Made by a program: the position numbers and the translations under genes
Notes under the pieces: model-generated
Database searches by the model: none
What the model was told of the DNA's origin: nothing
Seen by the model: only the letters and a program-made list of their open reading frames with translations
Shown here: one piece after another, positions 30,837-62,845 of the stretch
Layout: each line of letters opens with the position of its first letter
Position numbering within the stretch: position 1 is the first letter of the stretch
NCBI RefSeq assembly: GCF_020480685.1
Contig: NZ_JAJAFU010000010.1
Location: forward strand, 1-64,000
Direction of reading: 5' to 3'
DNA: 64,000 nt
DNA from: Deferrivibrio essentukiensis
GTDB taxonomy: Bacteria > Chrysiogenota > Deferribacteres > Deferribacterales > Deferrivibrionaceae

Positions 30837-31892
30837 TTACTTGCAATAGTTGATAATGGTATTTGCAATGGATTCAAGTGGTACAACTTCATCTGCAATA
30901 CCAGCTTCAACTACAGCTCTTGGCATACCGTAAACTACGCATGTTTCTTGGTTTTGAGCTATAACAGCACCGCCCAAACCTTTTAACTTTTGTAAGCCTT
31001 TCAATCCGTCACTTCCCATACCGGTCATTATTACTCCTAAAGCATCCCGTCCAAAATTTTCTGCAACGGACTCCACCATAACATCCACACTCGGAATGTG
31101 CAGCATATTAGATGGTTCATTAGTCACATCTGTATAATAATTCGTCCCAATTTTTTTAATCTTTAGATGAAATCCGCCTTTTGCAATGTAAACTATATTT
31201 GGTTCAAGCTTTTCTTTCCCTTGAGCTTCAACAACTGTAAGCTGACTAAGCGTGTTTAGTCTGTTTGCAAGTGAAGCTGTAAAATTAGGTGGCATATGTT
31301 GGACAACCAGTACAGGCTTGTTTAATGATGACGGAAGCAGCGGTATAACCTTTTGCAAAGACTGGGGACCACCCGTTGAGGTGCCAATAGCTACTATTCT
31401 TTTATTACCGCTACCGGCTTTTACAGCAGTAGGTGTAAATGTAGTTTTAGGCTGTATTGATTGTTTCGGTTTAGCAGTTGGTATTCTAAAATGTTTTTTC
31501 GTTGCAAATTGTCTAATTTTTTCGATAATTTGATCTTCCAGCTTCATTACACCGAAACTTGCAAATGACTTATCTTTTGTCAGAAAGTCAACTGCACCAA
31601 GTTCAAGCGCTTTTATAGTGGCTTCAGCCCCTTCGGAAGTAAGTGAACTTACCATAATAACAGAAGTAGGGCATTTTGACATAATTTGACTTAGAGCCTC
31701 AAGTCCATCCATAATAGGCATTTCAATATCAAGGGTGATAACATCAGGTCTTAACTTTTCGGCAAGCTCGACAGCCTCTTTACCGTTTCTTCCAAAACCA
31801 ACAATTTGTATGTCAGGTGCTTTTTGTAACATGTTTTCAATCGCTTTTCTCATAAAAGCGGAATCATCGACTACAAGCAGTCTAATTGCCAT
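30837..31892 (-). CDS. cheB: Protein-glutamate methylesterase CheB
   Basis: A 351-aa two-domain response regulator: receiver (Asp55 in VITLDIEMPIMDG) and C-terminal methylesterase with IGTSTGGPQSLQKVIP (catalytic Ser), QHMPPNFTASLANRL (His) and VIMTGMGSDGLKG (Asp). It removes the methyl groups that CheR adds. The ATG overlaps the fliA stop by 11 nt, with AAAGGGG upstream. Confidence 0.95.
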   Translation of the reverse strand: MAIRLLVVDDSAFMRKAIENMLQKAPDIQIVGFGRNGKEAVELAEKLRPDVITLDIEMPIMDGLEALSQIMSKCPTSVIMVSSLTSEGAEATIKALELGAVDFLTKDKSFASFGVMKLEDQIIEKIRQFATKKHFRIPTAKPKQSIQPKTTFTPTAVKAGSGNKRIVAIGTSTGGPQSLQKVIPLLPSSLNKPVLVVQHMPPNFTASLANRLNTLSQLTVVEAQGKEKLEPNIVYIAKGGFHLKIKKIGTNYYTDVTNEPSNMLHIPSVDVMVESVAENFGRDALGVIMTGMGSDGLKGLQKLKGLGGAVIAQNQETCVVYGMPRAVVEAGIADEVVPLESIANTIINYCK

Positions 31893-32622
31893 AGAATGCC
31901 CCTTTCAATCTTTTTTTCAGTTTTGCCACAGCTGCTGAATGTATTTGCGAAGTTCTCGATTCGGTTATATTTAATACTTCACCTATTTCTTTCATTGTAA
32001 GCTCTTCATAATAATATAATGTAATTACAGCTTTTTCTTTTTCGTTAAGCTTGTCAATTGCATCTGATAATAAACCTATAAGCTCTTCTTTTTCAATAGC
32101 TTCTTCAGGATTTAGAAAAGTTCCTTTTATAAAGTCTACCAGGTCTGTTTCATTATCATCCCCTACAGAGTTGTTTAGACTAATAACCTGGTTGTTTTCA
32201 AGAACTTGTAACAAGTTAAAAACTTCATCAAGTTCCATATTAGTATATTCTGCAAGCTCTTCTGCGTTAGGTTTTCTTCCTAATTTAGTAGAAAGTTCAG
32301 CTATCTTTGTTTCAAGAGATTTTACTTTTGTTCTAAGGTTTCTCGGTAAGACATCCATTTGCCTCAGGGCGTCTAAAATTGCCCCTTTAATCCTTCTTTC
32401 AGCAAATGCTTTAAATTCAACATTTCTTGACTTATCAAATCGTTTAAAGCTTTCAACCAGTCCCAGACATGCGGCTGAATAAAGTTCGTCAAGGTCTACC
32501 GATGAGGGTAAAGTTTGGGAGATTCTGATTACCCAGCTTTTTATTTTAGGGATAAACTCTTCAGCGAGAGTATTTTGGTCTTCAGCGGAAATTTTATCTA
32601 AATATTTATCATAACCTGTCAC
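31882..32622 (-). CDS. fliA: Flagellar sigma factor FliA (sigma-28)
   Basis: A 246-aa sigma-70-family factor for late flagellar genes. Region 2 contains DELYSAACLGLVESFKRFD and the sigma-28 segment RRIKGAILDALRQMDVLPR. Region 3 includes LSTKLGRKPNAEELAEY, and region 4 ends with EKAVITLYYYEELTMKEIGE then LNITESRTSQIHS. It lies between flhG and cheB as in many bacteria. No flgM (anti-sigma-28) is seen in the window. Confidence 0.95.
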   Translation of the reverse strand: MTGYDKYLDKISAEDQNTLAEEFIPKIKSWVIRISQTLPSSVDLDELYSAACLGLVESFKRFDKSRNVEFKAFAERRIKGAILDALRQMDVLPRNLRTKVKSLETKIAELSTKLGRKPNAEELAEYTNMELDEVFNLLQVLENNQVISLNNSVGDDNETDLVDFIKGTFLNPEEAIEKEELIGLLSDAIDKLNEKEKAVITLYYYEELTMKEIGEVLNITESRTSQIHSAAVAKLKKRLKGAFYGN

Positions 32623-51989: not shown

Positions 51990-54900
51990 TTATCCCTCGC
52001 CGTGTAATATAAAGACAGCCCAATAAAACGGGTTATGGTATTTAGATTTTATATAGTTTTTTGCAAGTTTTACTGACTCGGTTTTACTCTTGCCAGATTT
52101 AAGGTTAGTATAAAGTTCTTCCATATATTCCACTGCTGGCTCAGAGGCTACTTCCCAAAGGCTAACCAAAACCGAATTTGCTCCAGCTTGCTGAAATGCT
52201 CTTGCAAAATTGGCGACACCTTCCCCCTCTATCTCTTTTCCTACTCCTGTGACGCAAGCTGATAATACCACAAGGTCTGCATTGATTTTCATCTTTGAAA
52301 CTTCGCTCAGTGTTAAAAAACCATCATCATTTTTATTTTCCACTTGACCAAGCAGTATAAATGGCTCTTTTATCCCTTGAATCATTCCAGGCAGTGATGC
52401 GTGAGTTGCAAAATGAAGGTATTTATAATCCTCTGGTCTTATTAATTTAAAATTGGTTTCATTTGCTTCCACCCCAAAAAGAATGTCCGGTGGCTCTGGC
52501 TTAGTCCCCATTATTTTCGCGATCTTTTTTATTTCAGTTTCGGTTTCAGGTAAAAGGGGAAATTCTATCTTATTATTTTCACTTTTTGTCGTTGCTCCCC
52601 ATTTTACATTTATTGCAAGTGCTCTAAATGCATATTTACTTTTATCGTTTAATGTGTAGTTTTTTAAAGTCTTTCCCTCTTTCCATGCTATATATCTTTG
52701 ATCGTCAGCAGTAAAAACAGGGTTGCCGATAGCAAAAAGTAATTTTTTGGGATTTTTCTTTTGAAACATTCTATTTAATGCAAGTATTGTGGCAGATTGG
52801 TAATAAGATATATTGTACCTGTCATTTACAAATATAGACGTTTCTATATTATTTCCTTTTTGAATAATTAATGATTCAAATGGCAAAACACCAAGTATCC
52901 CATCAGGTACTATAATTACTTTTGTATTTTCATCTACATTTTCCAAAGCTTCGGAAAGTAGTAATTTGTAGAGATTTTGTGCAGCTTCAATAGAAAACAT
53001 TTCCGGCTTTTTAAGTGTCATTGGCGAAAGAAATGCTTTTATGTCTTCTTCAAGTTGTTTTTTACTTACAGGTAGTTTTATGATTTTTTTTATCCCGCCT
53101 TTGGCAACAAGAAACAGATATGTAGCATCATTTGTTACAGAGTATTCCAATAATAACTCATTCTCTTTTAAAGGGAGTTTTTCTGCAGTTACAGGTAAAG
53201 GGTAATTGATTGCAGCATATCGGGGATATCTTTCTCTTAAAATTGCTATTAAACTATCAAGTTCTTTTTTCAATCCTTCTTTTTTTGCTATGAGTTCTTT
53301 TGTCTTTTGTTCACCAGATTTATAAGAATTTATAAGCTCTGTTTCAATTGAAGAAAGGTTATTCAAAATTTTATTTTCTGTAGTTCTTAGATTAGATGGG
53401 ATTTCCGACATATCATTATTTTTATTTGATGTAGACATTGCTTCAAGCAATGTCCTTGCTTTTGTCATTTCAGAAAAGTAAAATGCTGCTGCTTCGGGTG
53501 AATTGCCAAACTGTAAAAAATCATATGCACTTCTTCTTGCCTTGAGTAGCTCTGAGTATGCTTGGGACTGCGATGTTACATTTTTTACACCGGGGACAAG
53601 ATATTCGCTGTTTTTGTGCATTTCATAAAATACTGCTATAATCTCTCGATAAGGTCTTAATCTGTTGTAATAATTTCCCCCGGCAAAAAATTGCTCTTTG
53701 CTGTTTATCAAGTGTCTGTTGTCTTCAATCGAATTAATAGCAGTCATAAAATTTATGGCGGCTTCTTGCAAAAGCCCTTTTTCTTTCAATATTAATCCCT
53801 TTTGTGTATAATATTCCATATGTCTGGTGGGGGTGTCTTTCCATGTAGGCGGAATTTCATTTAATATTGCTAAAGCTCTATCTAATTCTCCGGTTAGAAT
53901 ATATGTTTCGACAAGGCCTGAGTTTATTAATCTGTTTGGTTTTATTTTACTTTCAAGATTTTTTCTTTCACTAAATACTTTTTCGGCTTCTCTATATTTT
54001 TTTTGTTTTAGCAATACTGCTCCTATATTATTTAACCTTGTTTCAATTAAGTGAGGATTATTGAGCTTTTTATCAATATCAAGAGCTTGTTTAAGGTATT
54101 CAAGCGCCTTTTCATAATTTCCAATTTTGAAATATGCCATCCCTATATTGTTTAAGAGGTAAGTTAATGAGTAAGGCCTGTCGAGCTTATTTTCAATTTC
54201 AAATGCTTTGTTGTAATATTGAAATGCATAATCGATATTGCCGAGACTGCTTTCTATGTGGCCTAAGTTATTTAGAATAGTTGCTTTAGTGGGGTTATCG
54301 TTTTGTTTATTAGCAAGTTCGAGAGATTCAAGATACAGGGTTTTTGCGTTTTCGTATCTGTTAAGATCCATGTATAATGTGCCAAAGCTGTTAAGGCTTA
54401 TCCCCAATTCTTTTGAGATGTGATTTTTCCTTTGAATATTTATTGCTTCTTCGTAGTATTTCATGGCATTTTCATAATTGTAGATGTCTGCGTAGGCATC
54501 CGCTAATTGTCTTGTAACAATTGAAATAGCTTCAGGGTCGTTTACTTTTTCAGCAACTTTTAAAGATTCCTTGAAATAAGATATTGCTTTTTCAAGCTGG
54601 CCCATTTTTGAATATGTTATTCCCAATTGATTTAGGTTGGCCCCGATGGAAAATTCATCGCCGAGTTCCTTGTATAATATGTTGGATTTATTAAAAGAAT
54701 CTATTGCTGATTCAAATTTACCTAACATTCTTTCTGTTTTTCCGAGTTCGTGTAGTGTGATTGACAGACTGCTCTTATCATTGTCTTTTTCGTATATTTT
54801 TTTACAATAGTTAAGGTATTCGTAAGCTTTTGGTATATTTATGCCAAGGCGATTGTAAATAGAAGCAGTGAGAAAATATCCTGTTGCAATCCAGCCCTCA

Positions 54901-55265
54901 TCTCCAAGTTTTTTTGCTGCTTCAACTGTTTTTTCATAATAGTAAAGGGCTTTTTCATTATTTCCCATATCTTCGTATGATGCTCCAAGACCATTGTAAT
55001 CGGCAGCATAACATTCATAGTCCTGGCCACAAAGAGCCAAAGATTTTTCATAGTAATATATCGCATCTTTATACCTTTTTTCATTGTATGCTTTATCAGC
55101 TATTTCCCAAATTTTCTCAGCTTCGCTTTTAGGCGTAGTATTTTTATTATTTGTAGTAGATTCTTCTGACAATTTTGAGTGGTAAGTATTGGTTGAACAT
55201 CCAATATTGATTATGGTGAATAATATTATTAAACAGAGCTTGATATAAAGATTTGATTTTATCAT
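51990..55265 (-). CDS. TPR-CHAT protease, probably exported lipoprotein
   Basis: A 1091-aa protein. The N-terminus has a hydrophobic signal ending INIGC-STN, an imperfect lipobox, so export and lipidation are likely. About ten tetratricopeptide repeats fill residues 45-500 (for example YYEKSLALCGQDYECYAADY and LGQLEKAISYFKESL-type units). A helical linker leads to a C-terminal CHAT caspase-like domain with catalytic His955 in HFATHASLPG and Cys1004 in VVLSACVTGVGKE; GEGVANFARAFQQAGA and SLWEV are standard CHAT wording. The ATG at 55265 is used because GGAG lies 6 nt upstream; a TTG at 55277 is not needed. Confidence 0.84.
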   Translation of the reverse strand: MIKSNLYIKLCLIILFTIINIGCSTNTYHSKLSEESTTNNKNTTPKSEAEKIWEIADKAYNEKRYKDAIYYYEKSLALCGQDYECYAADYNGLGASYEDMGNNEKALYYYEKTVEAAKKLGDEGWIATGYFLTASIYNRLGINIPKAYEYLNYCKKIYEKDNDKSSLSITLHELGKTERMLGKFESAIDSFNKSNILYKELGDEFSIGANLNQLGITYSKMGQLEKAISYFKESLKVAEKVNDPEAISIVTRQLADAYADIYNYENAMKYYEEAINIQRKNHISKELGISLNSFGTLYMDLNRYENAKTLYLESLELANKQNDNPTKATILNNLGHIESSLGNIDYAFQYYNKAFEIENKLDRPYSLTYLLNNIGMAYFKIGNYEKALEYLKQALDIDKKLNNPHLIETRLNNIGAVLLKQKKYREAEKVFSERKNLESKIKPNRLINSGLVETYILTGELDRALAILNEIPPTWKDTPTRHMEYYTQKGLILKEKGLLQEAAINFMTAINSIEDNRHLINSKEQFFAGGNYYNRLRPYREIIAVFYEMHKNSEYLVPGVKNVTSQSQAYSELLKARRSAYDFLQFGNSPEAAAFYFSEMTKARTLLEAMSTSNKNNDMSEIPSNLRTTENKILNNLSSIETELINSYKSGEQKTKELIAKKEGLKKELDSLIAILRERYPRYAAINYPLPVTAEKLPLKENELLLEYSVTNDATYLFLVAKGGIKKIIKLPVSKKQLEEDIKAFLSPMTLKKPEMFSIEAAQNLYKLLLSEALENVDENTKVIIVPDGILGVLPFESLIIQKGNNIETSIFVNDRYNISYYQSATILALNRMFQKKNPKKLLFAIGNPVFTADDQRYIAWKEGKTLKNYTLNDKSKYAFRALAINVKWGATTKSENNKIEFPLLPETETEIKKIAKIMGTKPEPPDILFGVEANETNFKLIRPEDYKYLHFATHASLPGMIQGIKEPFILLGQVENKNDDGFLTLSEVSKMKINADLVVLSACVTGVGKEIEGEGVANFARAFQQAGANSVLVSLWEVASEPAVEYMEELYTNLKSGKSKTESVKLAKNYIKSKYHNPFYWAVFILHGEG

Positions 55266-55293
55266 AGGAATCTCCAAGCAAATGACTTAGTAA

Positions 55294-56694: not shown

Positions 56695-56918
56695 TAAATT
56701 CTCCAAGTTATGTTGCATTTTTCAACGCAAGTTAGCACTTTTTATATTTAATTTCAATGCTGTTGAAGCTTGCTATATATGAAATAAATTTAGCTAAGAT
56801 ATTATTTTTGACATATCGGGTAGCTGTGCAGAAAAATTTCTAAATTTACATTTTTGGTTATGAATTGACTTTTTAGTAAAAATTTATAACATTTGGTAAA
56901 AAATAAGGAGGTATATTT

Positions 56919-57529: not shown

Positions 57530-58120
57530 ATTATAGTCCCCATCGATGAGGATGTCATCTCTGACGGTTTTCAACTTGGACTGTGTTGAAGGGATTGACA
57601 GTCTCAGTCCCCATCGATGAGGATGTCATCTCTGACTGATAAACATTTCAAGAGTCATAATCCTAAGGTCTCAGTCCCCATCGATGAGGATGTCATCTCT
57701 GACACGAATGTCCAGAATGCCAACACTGGAATGGTAGTCTCAGTCCCCATCGATGAGGATGTCATCTCTGACATTAAATTTGAACCGCTGATTTGGTTCA
57801 TAATGTCTCAGTCCCCATCGATGAGGATGTCATCTCTGACGAGGTGCGTAAAGGTATTATGAACGCACCTATGAGTCTCAGTCCCCATCGATGAGGATGT
57901 CATCTCTGACTTATCGGACATCAAGACACAGCATCTATTTTAAGTCTCAGTCCCCATCGATGAGGATGTCATCTCTGACTGGAAGAAATAAAAAACAAAG
58001 TGGTGGAGGAAGAAGTCTCAGTCCCCATCGATGAGGATGTCATCTCTGACAAATTGTCCTAAAGGAAAAGAAGCAGAGGTTGAAGTCTCAGTCCCCATCG
58101 ATGAGGATGTCATCTCTGAC
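57530..58120 (-). CRISPR. CRISPR array, nine 36-nt repeats and eight spacers
   Basis: Eight identical 36-nt repeats begin at 57601, 57668, 57737, 57805, 57875, 57944, 58015 and 58085; a ninth at 57530-57565 matches only from its sixth base onward. On the plus strand the repeat starts GTCTCAGTCCCCATCGATGA and ends GGATGTCATCTCTGAC, with a central CATCGATG palindrome. Spacers are 31-35 nt. The degenerate repeat marks the old end (left), so the leader is on the right and transcription runs on the minus strand. Read that way the repeat ends ACTGAGAC, comparable to the 8-nt 5' tags (ATTGAAAC-like) of type III and some type I crRNAs. No cas gene is in the window. Confidence 0.96.
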
Positions 58121-58145
58121 TCTGCCTTTTTTTATAAACTAAATA

Positions 58146-58173
58146 TCAATAAGTTACAAGGCCATTTTGTCAA
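58146..58173 (-). promoter_or_regulatory. Possible CRISPR leader promoter
   Basis: On the minus strand, a perfect TTGACA (58168-58173) and a weak TATTGA (58146-58151) are 16 nt apart, so transcription would begin about 20 nt before the first intact repeat at 58120. This agrees with the array polarity deduced from the degenerate repeat. Confidence 0.4.
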
Positions 58174-58192
58174 ACCCCCTCCAAAAAATGAG

Positions 58193-58345
58193 TTTTCCAC
58201 AATGATTTTAGGGGGGTCTGACAAGAAAAAATGTAGACGGATTTTTTAGGCTTATTATCAATAAGTTATGATGCTGTGTCAGAAATTTAATTTTTTGAGT
58301 TTTCCACATAGGTTTTCCACAATTTTTAAGGGTTATTGTGGAAAA
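58193..58345. promoter_or_regulatory. Cluster of four DnaA-box-like TTTTCCACA sites
   Basis: TTTTCCACA occurs at 58193-58201, 58300-58308 and 58313-58321 on the plus strand and once inverted at 58337-58345; each fits TTWTNCACA. Two of them are preceded by TGAG. Whether they bind DnaA is unknown. Confidence 0.45.
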
Positions 58346-58346
58346 C
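58312..58346. repeat. 12-bp perfect inverted repeat
   Basis: GTTTTCCACAAT (58312-58323) and ATTGTGGAAAAC (58335-58346) flank an 11-nt loop. The hairpin could be a protein-binding site or a weak terminator; there is no long T-run, so a terminator is less likely. Confidence 0.8.
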
Positions 58347-58476
58347 TTTTGAGTGTAAAAATAGCCTATCTCGCTGATATTCAACTGTCAAATAGCAATA
58401 ATATCAATTCAATACATTATTTTATACGTTGAATACAGATTTTGCAAACTATATTGAATTATTAACTATAAAAAAA

Positions 58477-58505
58477 TTGACTTGAAATAAGTTATTTATT
58501 ATTCT
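58477..58505 (+). promoter_or_regulatory. Probable promoter of the sigma/Lon-like operon
   Basis: TTGACT (58477-58482), 17-nt spacer, TATTCT (58500-58505), then GGGAGG and the ATG at 58525. The leader RNA would be very short. The inverted pair ATTCAA...TTGAAT (58407-58434) upstream may be an operator. Confidence 0.5.
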
Positions 58506-58524
58506 CTGAGGGAGGATAATTTTA

Positions 58525-59484
58525 ATGACCAAAGTCAGCTTAGAATATTTATTTTCTGTGTTTAAAAAGAAAGACTATGAAAATTTTATCATAGAGCTTA
58601 AAGATTATATCGCTTACTTTTTTAATTCCAAACTGAGCATATTAGTTTCTAACCCTATTTATGAAAATAAAGCTGATGCACTTAATGATGTTTTGTTTTA
58701 TTTTATTAGTGATAAGTTTCCTCTAATGAAAAAAGATTCATTGTCTTTTGATGACTATAAAAGGTTTGGAAGCTATTTAAACCTTTCTATAAATACAATT
58801 TTTTCAAACCTGTCACATCAGGATATTGTGTTTAGTCTAAAAAGCCGATTTAAAAAGGAATTACTCAATGTTGCTAAATCTACCGATATATTTGTAATTG
58901 AAAATGATAGAGTTAAAATTATAAAAGACCCTGAGACAACTACCATACAAAAAAAGCCTCAAAATTTTTTAGGTATACCTCAGGCAGACATTCCTGTACT
59001 TGTACATTTATTGATAGATAAAAAAGAGTATAGAGTTGATGAAGTAGTTGATAAATGTATTGAATATTTGTCTGATTACGGTTTTATTTACTTTGCTGAA
59101 AAGGTGAATGCAAACAATGATAATGATAACGAAGGTGTGAATGAATTTTATCTAAATTTAAAAGATGCGGGTGAGGAAGATTCTGCTCATGTAGATATTA
59201 AAGATGATATAGTAAAAGCTGCCAAAGAAACATTAGATACTATGACAGAATTTGAAAAAGCGATATTTAGTGATATGTTTTTTGAAGACTTGTCTCAATC
59301 GGAAATTGCTGAGAAAAATTCAATTTCAGTGCAAAATCTTGCATATTATAAAAATAAATTGGAAAAACATTTAAAATATATTTTTGAAAAATATGATTTA
59401 GTGGACGAAGAAAGGAATTTTAATATTTTTATGGAAGTAATGTATGAAATTTTAAAAACGGGGGAAAAATCTGTTTTTAAATAA
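58525..59484 (+). CDS. Sigma-70-like regulator at the head of a CRISPR-adjacent operon
   Basis: A 319-aa protein. Residues about 45-115 resemble sigma region 2 in outline (KADALNDVLFYFISDKFPL, YKRFGSYLNLSINTIFSN). An acidic, low-complexity linker (190-220, NNDNDNEGVN) leads to a region-4-like helix-turn-helix at about 240-290 (EFEKAIFSDMFFEDLSQSEI, AEKNSISVQNLAYYKNKL). It therefore looks like an alternative sigma factor or sigma-derived activator, longer than an ECF sigma. It starts the operon whose third gene encodes a Lon-like protease. The sigma reading is by pattern; region 2 is weak. Confidence 0.6.
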   Translation: MTKVSLEYLFSVFKKKDYENFIIELKDYIAYFFNSKLSILVSNPIYENKADALNDVLFYFISDKFPLMKKDSLSFDDYKRFGSYLNLSINTIFSNLSHQDIVFSLKSRFKKELLNVAKSTDIFVIENDRVKIIKDPETTTIQKKPQNFLGIPQADIPVLVHLLIDKKEYRVDEVVDKCIEYLSDYGFIYFAEKVNANNDNDNEGVNEFYLNLKDAGEEDSAHVDIKDDIVKAAKETLDTMTEFEKAIFSDMFFEDLSQSEIAEKNSISVQNLAYYKNKLEKHLKYIFEKYDLVDEERNFNIFMEVMYEILKTGEKSVFK

Positions 59485-59502
59485 TGAGACTAAGGGATAA
59501 TT

Positions 59503-60408
59503 ATGGATAAATTTGATTTGACAAGGCTTAAATATCAGCTTGAGGAGATTGAAAAGGTTTATTTTATAGAAAATAAACCTATCGTAGATAAAATAAATGA
59601 TGATATTAAAAGCATAGATGCCATATCAAAATTTAAACAAGGAGATATTTGTGCTGTAAAGGTCGACTCCCCTTTACCTGTATATATTTTGATACTAAAG
59701 CGTTGTGAATTTTACTTTGAATGTGTGAGAGTATCAATTTTTACTGAGTTTGAATCAGATTTAGATATAATATTTGAGGCTTGGCTTATTCAGCCATGGA
59801 ATAAATTAAAAATACTATTTAACAGAATATCCCACAAGGTAGAAAGTGTGCCCGAAGAGTTAATTACACAAATTTATAGTATGATGGGCAAATTAAAGGA
59901 TAAAAAAGAGCCTGTATTGTTGCAGCATTTTAGAGATTTGGAAGTAGCTTATCAAAATGATTATTTTTTAAATAGTGATAATGAGATTATTGAAAAATTG
60001 ATAAATGAAAAGAGCAACCTTTTAAAAAGTATAAAACAAAAGCTGACTGAGCAATACGGAAAAATCATAAATATTGTTTTGCCTGAGCAATTACCATTAT
60101 TTGCTGATACCGGTAAGTTAGTAACTTACGGATATGAAAAATCGATTTTAATATATGAAGATGATGTAATAAGGCTTAGTTATTTTCTGTACAGATGTGA
60201 TGAAAGTTTTTGTATAAAATTTTTCTTAAATCATTTCTTGAATATTATTGTAGATAATATTTTTATTAATAATTCCGGAGCAGATATTTTGTTTGAAGAT
60301 TTTGAAAAAACAATATTTCAATATCGAGCGGATAAGCTTGAGGAAGTAATAATAAATTTAAATATACTAAATAACGAATTAAAGTTTTGTTTAAAACAGA
60401 ATGCTTAA
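59503..60408 (+). CDS. Unrecognised protein with a possible MazF/SH3-like segment
   Basis: A 301-aa soluble protein of no family I can name. Residues 45-110 (KFKQGDICAVKVDSPLPVYI, then VRVSIFTEFESD) begin like MazF/PemK-type small barrels, where a GDI/V-x-V strand is typical; the resemblance is weak. The remainder is helical with several charged segments. It lies between the sigma-like gene and the Lon-like gene (18 nt after the first, overlapping the second by 8 nt), the place where an anti-sigma partner would sit in a sigma/anti-sigma/protease cassette. That role is inference from gene order. Confidence 0.5.
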   Translation: MDKFDLTRLKYQLEEIEKVYFIENKPIVDKINDDIKSIDAISKFKQGDICAVKVDSPLPVYILILKRCEFYFECVRVSIFTEFESDLDIIFEAWLIQPWNKLKILFNRISHKVESVPEELITQIYSMMGKLKDKKEPVLLQHFRDLEVAYQNDYFLNSDNEIIEKLINEKSNLLKSIKQKLTEQYGKIINIVLPEQLPLFADTGKLVTYGYEKSILIYEDDVIRLSYFLYRCDESFCIKFFLNHFLNIIVDNIFINNSGADILFEDFEKTIFQYRADKLEEVIINLNILNNELKFCLKQNA

Positions 60409-62032
60409 TAACAGTGCAATTGAGACAAATTTAATTCTTAATACATCAAATTTATCTGATTTACCAAATTTTTTAAAAGAAAACAGATGTCATATAGATA
60501 TTCAATATAAAGATATTGGAGAGTATTATAAAAATCTTAATAAGTTTTTATTGAGAGATTTAAAAGATAAGGTTTGTGAGGATATAGATTTTGCGGTTTT
60601 TTTCCCTGTGGTAGGCAGTGATTCTAAAATATTTGCAGTAACCTATCAAAAAAGTAATATGCTTTATTCAAAGTCAATAAAAGATATCGAGTATTTTGCT
60701 CGCATGACAAAATGCTTTATAAACAAAAAGTTTGATATCCCACTCTCTTTATTGAATATAAATGGTAAATATGAAATAAATGCAGATGAAAATTTTTACG
60801 GTGATTCTTACACGTTAGCCGTATTTCTTACGATTTTAATCACAAATTTTGGCAAAGTAGGGGCATTTCCTATTACAGTTACAGGTATTTTTAATGATAA
60901 GTTTGAAATTGAGCCTGTAAATTATGTACAAGAGAAATATAAAGTGTTTGATCGAGAAATTTTAAATAGTAGTAGAAAATTTGTCTACTGCTCAGATGTA
61001 AATTTGAATTATCCAGATGCTTTAAGAGTTGATAATACTGATGAAGTATTGGATGCTATTAATTTTGAATATTTTTTTCCTGAAAAATTTTTAAAATTAA
61101 AAGATTTATTAAAAAAAGCTGACAATCTTGAGACGGAAAAAAGGTTTTTTGATGCCAATGAAATATATTTATATGTGGAAAGGGTATTCAATAACAAGCT
61201 TGATATTTATGAAAAATTTAAAATCCTGCTTTCAAAGGCAAATTTTGAAAACCTAAATGATAATATTTCAAAAGCGGAAAATTTTTATCATCAGATTGAC
61301 AATGAAATTATAAAGAGTAAACATTTTAGCCCTTTTGCTTGCTCAGATGATATGAGTAAATATTATTTAAGATTGACAAAATTTTATCTCAAAAAATTTG
61401 AAATTGATAATGCCAAAAATATTCTGGAAGAGTGTAAAGATATTATAGACAACGATTATGAGGACAAATATTATGAAATTTTAGGAAATATATATGAAAT
61501 AGATTTTGATTTTGATAAAGCTCTCCATTATTACCATAAGTCTGAAGAGAATGGGTATATGGTAGATGAAGCAAGGGCTTTTAACAATAAAATGCGACTT
61601 TTTATTAAAATGAATGAGTTTAAATTTGCAAAAAAGCTCATAAATGCGTATAAAACACCCCCCCTTAATTCTGAAAATGTATATTACATACTAAAATATT
61701 CTCTTTTAAACGGCGATAAAGATTTTTTTGATTTATTAAGAAGTTACAAATTTTATAATAGTAAATTTGATAAACTGAATATGTTAATTTTAAACAAACT
61801 AAATTTGTGCCAATTAGAAATACAGGATATTAATCATAAATTTACTAACTTTATATGTGATTTGTATGAAAAATTTTTTGACGGAATGAGTCTTGAAGAA
61901 TATCTCATTGAGATAAAGTCAAATAGTTTAATTGAGGATATACTTGGTCTTAAAGAGTATATTTTAAACTTTATTGAAAATAAAAAGGTACTAACTTTTA
62001 AGGAATTGTTGAGCACAACTATATATTTTTAA
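60401..62032 (+). CDS. Lon-type (S16) protease-like domain with C-terminal helical repeats
   Basis: A 543-aa protein. Residues about 120-225 match the Lon proteolytic fold: ENFYGDSYTLAVFLTILITN, then GAFPITVTGIFNDKFEIEPV, then VQEKYKVFDREI, and VDNTDEVLDAI in the place of the final Lon helix. Ser136 (GDS) and Lys179 (EKY) stand 43 residues apart, the same spacing as Ser679-Lys722 of E. coli Lon. There is no AAA+ domain. Residues 235-480 contain TPR-like helical pairs (YYEILGNIYEIDFDFDKALH, YYHKSEENGY). A protease that acts on a neighbour, activated by an unidentified signal, is the likely role. No SAVED domain is recognised in the first 120 residues. Confidence 0.65.
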   Translation: MLNNSAIETNLILNTSNLSDLPNFLKENRCHIDIQYKDIGEYYKNLNKFLLRDLKDKVCEDIDFAVFFPVVGSDSKIFAVTYQKSNMLYSKSIKDIEYFARMTKCFINKKFDIPLSLLNINGKYEINADENFYGDSYTLAVFLTILITNFGKVGAFPITVTGIFNDKFEIEPVNYVQEKYKVFDREILNSSRKFVYCSDVNLNYPDALRVDNTDEVLDAINFEYFFPEKFLKLKDLLKKADNLETEKRFFDANEIYLYVERVFNNKLDIYEKFKILLSKANFENLNDNISKAENFYHQIDNEIIKSKHFSPFACSDDMSKYYLRLTKFYLKKFEIDNAKNILEECKDIIDNDYEDKYYEILGNIYEIDFDFDKALHYYHKSEENGYMVDEARAFNNKMRLFIKMNEFKFAKKLINAYKTPPLNSENVYYILKYSLLNGDKDFFDLLRSYKFYNSKFDKLNMLILNKLNLCQLEIQDINHKFTNFICDLYEKFFDGMSLEEYLIEIKSNSLIEDILGLKEYILNFIENKKVLTFKELLSTTIYF

Positions 62033-62104
62033 TAACTTTTATTGTAATTGGAAAAAAGTGTGATAAGATAAAGTTGCTGCTTAATTTTAAAATTGAGGGT
62101 TTTG

Positions 62105-62845
62105 GTGGGGCTAAACTATCATTTTCTCCTTGGGGGGAGAGACCTTGAAATGTTTGAAATTGAATCAATCTTAATTGATAATTGCATTACATTTTCCAAT
62201 CGTAATTTAAGTTGGGGAGCAACACTGAGCAGTTATGAAGATTTATTTGATTTAGACTTTAAGTTTATAGGTATTGAGCTTATTTCCGATTGTAAACCTC
62301 CAAAAAATTATATTATTATTGACCATCACAATGAATATTCCAGTAACAAATCTTCTATTGAGCAGGTGGCTGATTTATTAAATATCCGTCTTAGCAGGTA
62401 TCAAACATTAGTGGCATTGAATGATAGTGGGTATATTCCTGCAATGCTAAATTATGGTGCTACAATTGAAGAGGTATCCGCAATAAGAAAAAAAGACAGA
62501 ATGTGTCAGGGTGTGACTTTAGAAGAGGAAAAATTAGCAGAAAAATCTATATCAGAAAATATGGAAATAATATCAGGTGTGCCATTTATAAAATCATTTA
62601 CAAATAGGTTTTCACCGATTGCTGATAGGATATATTTTGAATATCCTCAATTTGTGATTTTTGATGACATCAGTTGGTTTTATTCAGGGGGAAAAGCCCA
62701 TAAATTAGCTGATATTTTTAAAAAAGAGGTAAATGTCGGTTTAGCATATTATGGAGGAAGTGCAAAATTTGGTTTTTTGGGAATGAATGATAAGTTTAAG
62801 GAATATTATAAAAATAAGATAATAGAGGTAATTAAACATGGATGA
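62105..62845 (+). CDS. DHH-like phosphoesterase-fold protein
   Basis: About 246 aa from a GTG at 62105 (GAGG 6 nt upstream); a TTG at 62093 is the alternative. YIIIDHHNEYSSNKSSIEQV gives the DHH motif with its usual Asn, followed by LVALNDSGYIPAML (a later Asp) and GGSAKFGFLG near the C-terminus, in the position of the glycine-rich DHHA1 substrate loop. The N-terminal DxD motif of full DHH enzymes is not clear. DHH enzymes cleave nanoRNA or (di)nucleotide messengers. The previous gene ends 72 nt upstream. It could remove a second messenger; that is inferred from the fold. Confidence 0.55.
   Translation: MGLNYHFLLGGRDLEMFEIESILIDNCITFSNRNLSWGATLSSYEDLFDLDFKFIGIELISDCKPPKNYIIIDHHNEYSSNKSSIEQVADLLNIRLSRYQTLVALNDSGYIPAMLNYGATIEEVSAIRKKDRMCQGVTLEEEKLAEKSISENMEIISGVPFIKSFTNRFSPIADRIYFEYPQFVIFDDISWFYSGGKAHKLADIFKKEVNVGLAYYGGSAKFGFLGMNDKFKEYYKNKIIEVIKHG

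Follow-up and report, generated by a model that had tools for sequence, protein, structure and literature searches.

Three adjacent genes near the end of a 64,000-nucleotide stretch of the Deferrivibrio essentukiensis genome encode a sigma-like protein, a middle protein that alignment identifies as a distant relative of the anti-sigma protein CalpT, and a protease in which a Lon-like domain is followed by tetratricopeptide repeat (TPR)-like helices (here TPR-Lon). This stretch, which we call the window, comprises the first 64,000 of the 75,775 bases of contig NZ_JAJAFU010000010.1 (assembly GCF_020480685.1; 2.36 Mb in 64 contigs). The cassette heads an operon-like run of type III-B CRISPR (clustered regularly interspaced short palindromic repeats) genes, and we consider it likely that it forms a divergent, CalpS-CalpT-CalpL-type proteolytic sigma switch run by that operon. 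This estimate covers the switch and its control by the operon, not the choice of signal; the conjugate of S-adenosylmethionine and AMP (SAM-AMP) is a candidate trigger of TPR-Lon that we advance tentatively, as close to an even call. If the proposal is true, gene expression may be under the command of an immune system via a signal input not described before.

The cassette and its operon

The genes on which the argument turns are as follows.

58525..59484, plus strand: sigma-like protein, 319 aa, of extracytoplasmic function (ECF) type, its regions 2 and 4 separated by a long stretch
59503..60408, plus strand: middle protein, 301 aa, distant end-to-end relative of CalpT (anti-sigma)
60401..61105, plus strand: Lon-like (S16) domain, residues 1-235 of the 543-aa protease; Ser136 codon at 60806-60808, Lys179 codon at 60935-60937
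61106..62032, plus strand: TPR-like helical half of the protease, C-terminal, at the place of SAVED in CalpL
62093..62845, plus strand: NrN, a DHH-family phosphodiesterase (SAM-AMP degrading family); PADLOC DHH_CorA 3.4e-68, DHH at residues 77-79 by alignment
62838..64349 (window part to 64000), plus strand: CorA-family membrane effector (SAM-AMP effector family), 503 aa; PADLOC CorA 1.6e-108
contig 65606-67024 (L009:8606-10024), plus strand: cas10, 472 aa, just past the window end

Reading of the open reading frames (ORFs) bore out the three adjacent genes of the original prediction: all are intact and co-directional (58525-59484, 59503-60408 and 60401-62032), and the last two share 8 nt (60401-60408). 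A gap of 60 nt separates the cassette from nrn. Because the strand stays the same past 64000 through cas2, the cassette stands first in an operon-like run of type III-B genes: sigma cassette, nrn, corA, cmr1, cas10, cmr3, cmr4, cmr5, cmr6, a gene for a Card1-like CARF nuclease, a gene for a Cas6-reverse transcriptase-Cas1 fusion and cas2. The suspected link to type III CRISPR, and the suggestion that cas10 might be found beyond 64000, are thus both substantiated. We infer that the run is expressed as a single operon, that the middle protein is cut and that the sigma factor is released.

A canonical Calp cassette in the same genome

A separate contig of this genome carries a canonical Calp cassette ahead of a second type III-B operon, with genes for a 183-aa protein, a sigma-like protein (212 aa), CalpT (288 aa; PADLOC CRISPR-T 8e-25) and CalpL (502 aa; L010:2091-3599), the last matching 7QDA at 1.5e-44 and the SAVED profile PF18145 at 2.6e-18. 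CalpL occurs in six of 51 genomes of the phylum, from which our alignments of CalpS, CalpT and CalpL were built. The Cas10 of this second locus has an intact GGDD motif and N at position 70 (FPNK); Pyrococcus Cas10, which is of cyclic-oligoadenylate type, has N300 (PMC10600005). By this residue, the second-locus Cas10 is assigned to the cyclic-oligoadenylate type.

Downstream of the second cmr operon lies a gene for a CARF-like/adenosine deaminase protein (Cad1-like; L010:13359-16409), followed by two small ORFs. In a same-genus genome, a 92-96% identical Calp locus precedes an apparent type III-A csm set and not cmr (L010 compared with L100-L101), an apparent exchange of effector modules behind Calp between the same flanking genes.

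The three cassette proteins

Residues 76-284 of the first protein match NCBIfam TIGR02985 (E=1e-6) and the sigma70-ECF model TIGR02937 (E=3e-5); the protein also matches the PHROG sigma factor phrog_1740 (6e-7), and a Pfam match to sigma region 4 fell under its cut-off (7.5e-4). The gene predicted as sigma-70-like is therefore of ECF type, and its product is, as predicted, larger than CalpS (319 aa against 212 aa in the canonical cassette). A CalpS-like role is proposed from sequence. Kinship specific to CalpS was sought with alignment and profile tests against CalpS and not found, and BLASTP against the paralogue of the same genome was not significant. An ordinary sigma factor elsewhere in the window (31882-32622, minus strand; regions 2, 3 and 4, Pfam 7e-19) fits the CalpS profile better than the cassette protein does.

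Since the middle protein and the Lon domain both escape all curated profiles, each was tested directly, with real ORFs and shuffled sequences as controls. Against seven CalpT sequences the middle protein reached a mean alignment score of 110, a value attained by none of 417 control ORFs (best 80), with z of 5.2-6.0 and alignment over the full length; BLASTP against the CalpT of the same genome was marginal (E=0.008). These scores identify it as a distant CalpT relative, and it is in this form that the predicted MazF-like anti-sigma protein stands.

Translation of the third gene places Ser136 and Lys179 43 residues apart. A CalpL-type Lon profile aligns FYGDSYTLA (Ser box) and EPVNYVQEK (Lys box) onto the catalytic boxes, collinear with CalpL. 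A profile of ten Lon domains scored 17.3 bits on the protease, which none of 4,000 shuffles reached, while the score of a narrower Lon profile was equalled in one of 2,000. Residues 1-240 aligned to nine CalpL Lon domains with a mean score of 81, and none of 343 other ORFs exceeded 70; comparison with CalpL Lon gave z 4.2; BLASTP against the CalpL of the same genome was not significant. Pfam found no AAA+ match, nor any to Lon_C even at E=1. On these alignments, the domain is a distant relative of CalpL-Lon with both catalytic residues in place and no AAA+ domain, as the original reading of the Ser/Lys pair had it.

The TPR-like repeats said to follow the protease domain were recovered (PF25063, 1.5e-5; designed TPR proteins in the PDB, 5.6e-5). 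No SAVED match was obtained from PF18145 or PADLOC, in agreement with the prediction, whereas CalpL of the same genome matches PF18145 as given above. We considered whether the C-terminal half retains a remnant of SAVED and rejected this: the half consists of helical repeats with no SAVED profile match, and its alignment to SAVED gave z=2.7, which we do not take as homology. Nor was there a CARF match (Pfam, PADLOC), a CHAT match (Pfam) or any Csx29 among the PDB matches.

Messenger signature of the operon

In SAM-AMP systems, Cas10 lacks HD and carries D70 and E151, CorA carries R152/R153 and D219/D220, and NrN carries DHH (Chi et al., PMC10600005). Aligned to the Cmr2 chain of 9lq5 (2e-47), a reference whose D328/D329 numbering agrees with Bacteroides fragilis Cas10, the window-locus Cas10 keeps the equivalents of both acidic residues, which are kept in 39/40 (D70) and 40/40 (E151) Cas10 proteins of CorA loci. 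It begins at Cmr2_N with no HD stretch ahead, and CorA keeps RR148/149 and DD221/222, conserved across the CorA set. The operon thus looks built for SAM-AMP signalling, carrying the published marks of that pathway and not those of cyclic tetra-adenylate (cA4). The original suggestion of a separate branch that uses a different signal fits this picture, with SAVED absent and SAM-AMP markers in place of cA4 ones. Card1-like genes were also seen near CorA in four other loci (L017, L032, L042 and L067).

Arrays, island and upstream region

57530..58120, minus strand: CRISPR array 1, nine copies of a 36-nt repeat, tag ACTGAGAC, with a degenerate repeat at the low-coordinate end
58122..58353, minus strand: array 1 leader, sharing 98% identity with the array 2 leader over 232 bp
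58354..58524, plus strand: cassette upstream region, with a GGGAGG resembling a ribosome-binding site ahead of the ATG

The CRISPR array reported beside the cassette is real. Its orientation is fixed by the leader, which matches the sequence just before array 2 (contig 73950-74181, on the opposite strand): array 1 is transcribed away from the cassette, and its leader lies on the cassette side. Array 2 has at least 22 repeats and lies close to the contig end, so that two arrays with 98% identical leaders flank the operon. No convincing promoter was found in the upstream region 58354-58524, and a promoter motif search brought out no common motif.

The cassette lies on an island missing from two genomes of the same genus, whose 96-99% identical sequence ends its match at window position 56768. 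Just left of this boundary is a gene for a 1095-aa TPR-CHAT protein with a lipoprotein-like signal (51990-55277, minus strand), probably unrelated to CRISPR.

Distribution

No convincing homologue of TPR-Lon, the sigma-like protein or the middle protein was found in the 51 phylum genomes, plasmids and viral contigs, although CalpL as a positive-control query did match in six of the 51 genomes. The 50 genomes with CorA loci gave weak chance matches to cassette proteins and nothing more; the best of these, L073, is a TPR/membrane protein and not a homologue. Neither 347 genomes around a Sulfurimonas genome nor 395 around a Desulfobacteraceae genome held a cassette homologue, and a peptide-pattern search of genome contigs returned close relatives only. 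Such empty searches carry limited weight, because the cassette proteins diverge fast.

Among 396 Bacteroidota the Lon-domain profile matched once, in a cassette whose genes encode sigma-like, PemK/MazF-like and Lon_C proteins (L104:3053-6375, G1022:C3; the L104 cassette). Its middle protein resembles CalpT (z 4.2) more than the window middle protein (z 1.1), and its protease ends in a domain of about 140 aa without a database match; a Csx3-like end, seen by eye, had no database support.

Proposed mechanism and alternatives

By analogy with Calp (PMC11417357; PMC12751052) and type III-E CASP (PMC10028731), cleavage and sigma release most likely follow the same scheme here. In the resting cell, the CalpT-like middle protein would sequester the sigma factor. 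When the Cmr complex meets phage RNA, Cas10 would be switched on and should make SAM-AMP; the signal would then activate the Lon-like protease, in which the TPR-like array replaces SAVED, and the protease would cut the middle protein, freeing the sigma factor to redirect transcription. CorA would act in parallel on the membrane and NrN would end the signal. As the SAVED device is missing, activation must differ from that of CalpL; SAM-AMP is the first candidate because of the operon's own markers, and the second is that the TPR array docks directly on Cmr. It is possible, and we put it no higher, that TPR-Lon is a protease effector of the SAM-AMP pathway, with SAM-AMP (or Cmr docking) leading to a transcriptional response and the sensor swapped for a TPR array. 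Our literature search found no SAM-AMP-activated protease, TPR-Lon effector or SAM-AMP transcriptional output; the only SAM-AMP effector that we found reported is the membrane protein CorA, and the same literature calls it an open puzzle that immunity also needs SAM-AMP degradation. If true, transcription would be a second output of SAM-AMP, and the messenger would have a soluble receptor that is easy to assay.

Several observations weigh against a sigma switch run by this operon. The middle protein has no meaningful match in Pfam, NCBIfam, PADLOC or PHROG, and its local-profile score against CalpT is reached in about 2% of cases by shuffling. Homology of the Lon domain is remote, no single database profile recognising it, and AlphaFold gave no usable fold either for TPR-Lon alone (pLDDT, the predicted local distance difference test, 36.6) or when seven CalpL rows accompanied the Lon domain (34.0). 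Cas10 of the locus has SGDD instead of GGDD; both metal-binding D residues are intact, but in the other 39 of 40 Cas10 proteins from CorA loci the motif starts with G, making SGDD unique among the 40, and messenger synthesis is therefore not certain. The Card1-like CARF nuclease within the operon (L009:12915-14018) hints at cyclic oligoadenylate as an additional messenger. Across 54 other CorA loci from many phyla, with largely uniform gene order, none contains the sigma/middle/TPR-Lon cassette, which is a single instance so far, and neither a CRISPR array nor any cas gene lies within 52 kb of the L104 cassette.

How far these points favour other explanations differs from case to case. The models without a usable fold, together with the silence of Pfam Lon_C, would suit a TPR protein that lacks protease activity and carries its Ser/Lys pattern by chance; the Lon profile and alignment tests and the CalpT-like neighbour make such a misassignment very improbable. 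The empty CorA loci and the L104 cassette would equally suit a sigma/anti-sigma/protease cassette for stress response or regulation that has nothing to do with CRISPR and landed beside the operon by chance. The L104 cassette, with no cas genes nearby and another C-terminal domain on its protease, means that such switches are not confined to CRISPR and that their C-terminal domains vary. The original prediction held that homologous operons found mostly without CRISPR would count against it, and what we met is one distant CRISPR-unlinked cassette, a single case. The window cassette sits between the array 1 leader and nrn, co-directional and within an island absent from two same-genus genomes, and the two homologous domains have their kin in the CRISPR-linked Calp family; we accordingly regard a chance neighbour as improbable.

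Two further explanations concern the signal. The cassette might answer cyclic oligoadenylate or another messenger, possibly one that the cell's other type III system makes, with a purely positional tie to the SAM-AMP operon; this would accommodate the Card1-like nuclease, the SGDD of the window-locus Cas10 and the cyclic-oligoadenylate-type Cas10 of the second locus. It, too, is hardly probable, since TPR-Lon has no recognisable cyclic-oligoadenylate-binding domain, the second locus already owns a SAVED-bearing CalpL and mixed signals within one locus are very rare (PMC11229360). Somewhat less remote, if still unlikely, is a Craspase-like variant of the switch that differs in its signal only, the TPR array docking the Lon protease on Cmr so that target-RNA binding activates it without a diffusible messenger and the sigma factor is then freed. 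TPR-CHAT Csx29 is activated directly on Cas7-11 in type III-E, where anti-sigma and sigma genes are present (PMC10028731), and the window offers TPR-like repeats, a protease with no SAVED or CARF match and a cassette joined to its own cmr operon. The protease is Lon-like, however, not CHAT, with no Csx29 among its PDB matches, and canonical Calp relies on a messenger.

Comparison with known systems

The closest parallel is Calp (CalpL/T/S of Sulfurihydrogenibium, PDB 7QDA, 8B0R and 8B0U; second Lon-SAVED structure 9EYI), in which cA4 binding to the SAVED domain of CalpL drives oligomer or filament formation and activation (PMC11417357; PMC12751052). The order sigma-anti-sigma-protease, an N-terminal Lon-like domain with Ser and Lys, a CalpT-like middle protein similar in length to CalpT and a type III operon are common to both. 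Of the predicted match in gene order and types, the order, the ECF-type sigma gene, the CalpT-like middle protein and the Lon domain held up; the sigma-like protein showed no specific affinity to CalpS. The window cassette further departs from Calp in its TPR-like array where CalpL has SAVED, its Ser-Lys spacing (43 against 40 in Calp), its larger sigma-like protein, its locus of SAM-AMP type where Calp has cyclic-oligoadenylate-type Cas10, and its lack of the gene of about 184 aa (PADLOC C3a162) that stands ahead of sigma in five of six related loci.

The operon behind the cassette shares its nrn-corA-cmr1-cas10-cmr3-6 order and signature residues with the CorA/NrN SAM-AMP type III-B system of B. 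fragilis Cmr (PMC10600005), to which this locus adds the sigma/anti-sigma/protease cassette and an SGDD Cas10. Type III-E CASP/Craspase (Cas7-11, TPR-CHAT Csx29, Csx30 and CASP-sigma; PMC10028731) likewise combines a TPR-type protease, an anti-sigma substrate and a sigma factor. Its protease is a CHAT cysteine protease, whereas the window has a Lon-like serine/lysine protease; we found no similarity of window proteins to Csx29 or Csx30, and with multi-subunit cmr genes in place of Cas7-11, and no CHAT, the locus falls outside type III-E. The L104 cassette of Bacteroidota resembles that of the window in its three gene types and their order, in a large ECF-type sigma factor with the same match layout and in a Lon_C domain, and differs in the C-terminal domain of the protease and in the CRISPR-free surroundings described above.

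With neither SAVED nor the marks of cA4 signalling found, we do not class the cassette as a member of Calp; it probably works like Calp. Calp-type switches occur twice in this genome, once with SAVED and a cyclic-oligoadenylate-type Cas10 and once SAVED-less with a SAM-AMP-type Cas10; the pair offers a ready comparison for asking where in the switch the signal is read.

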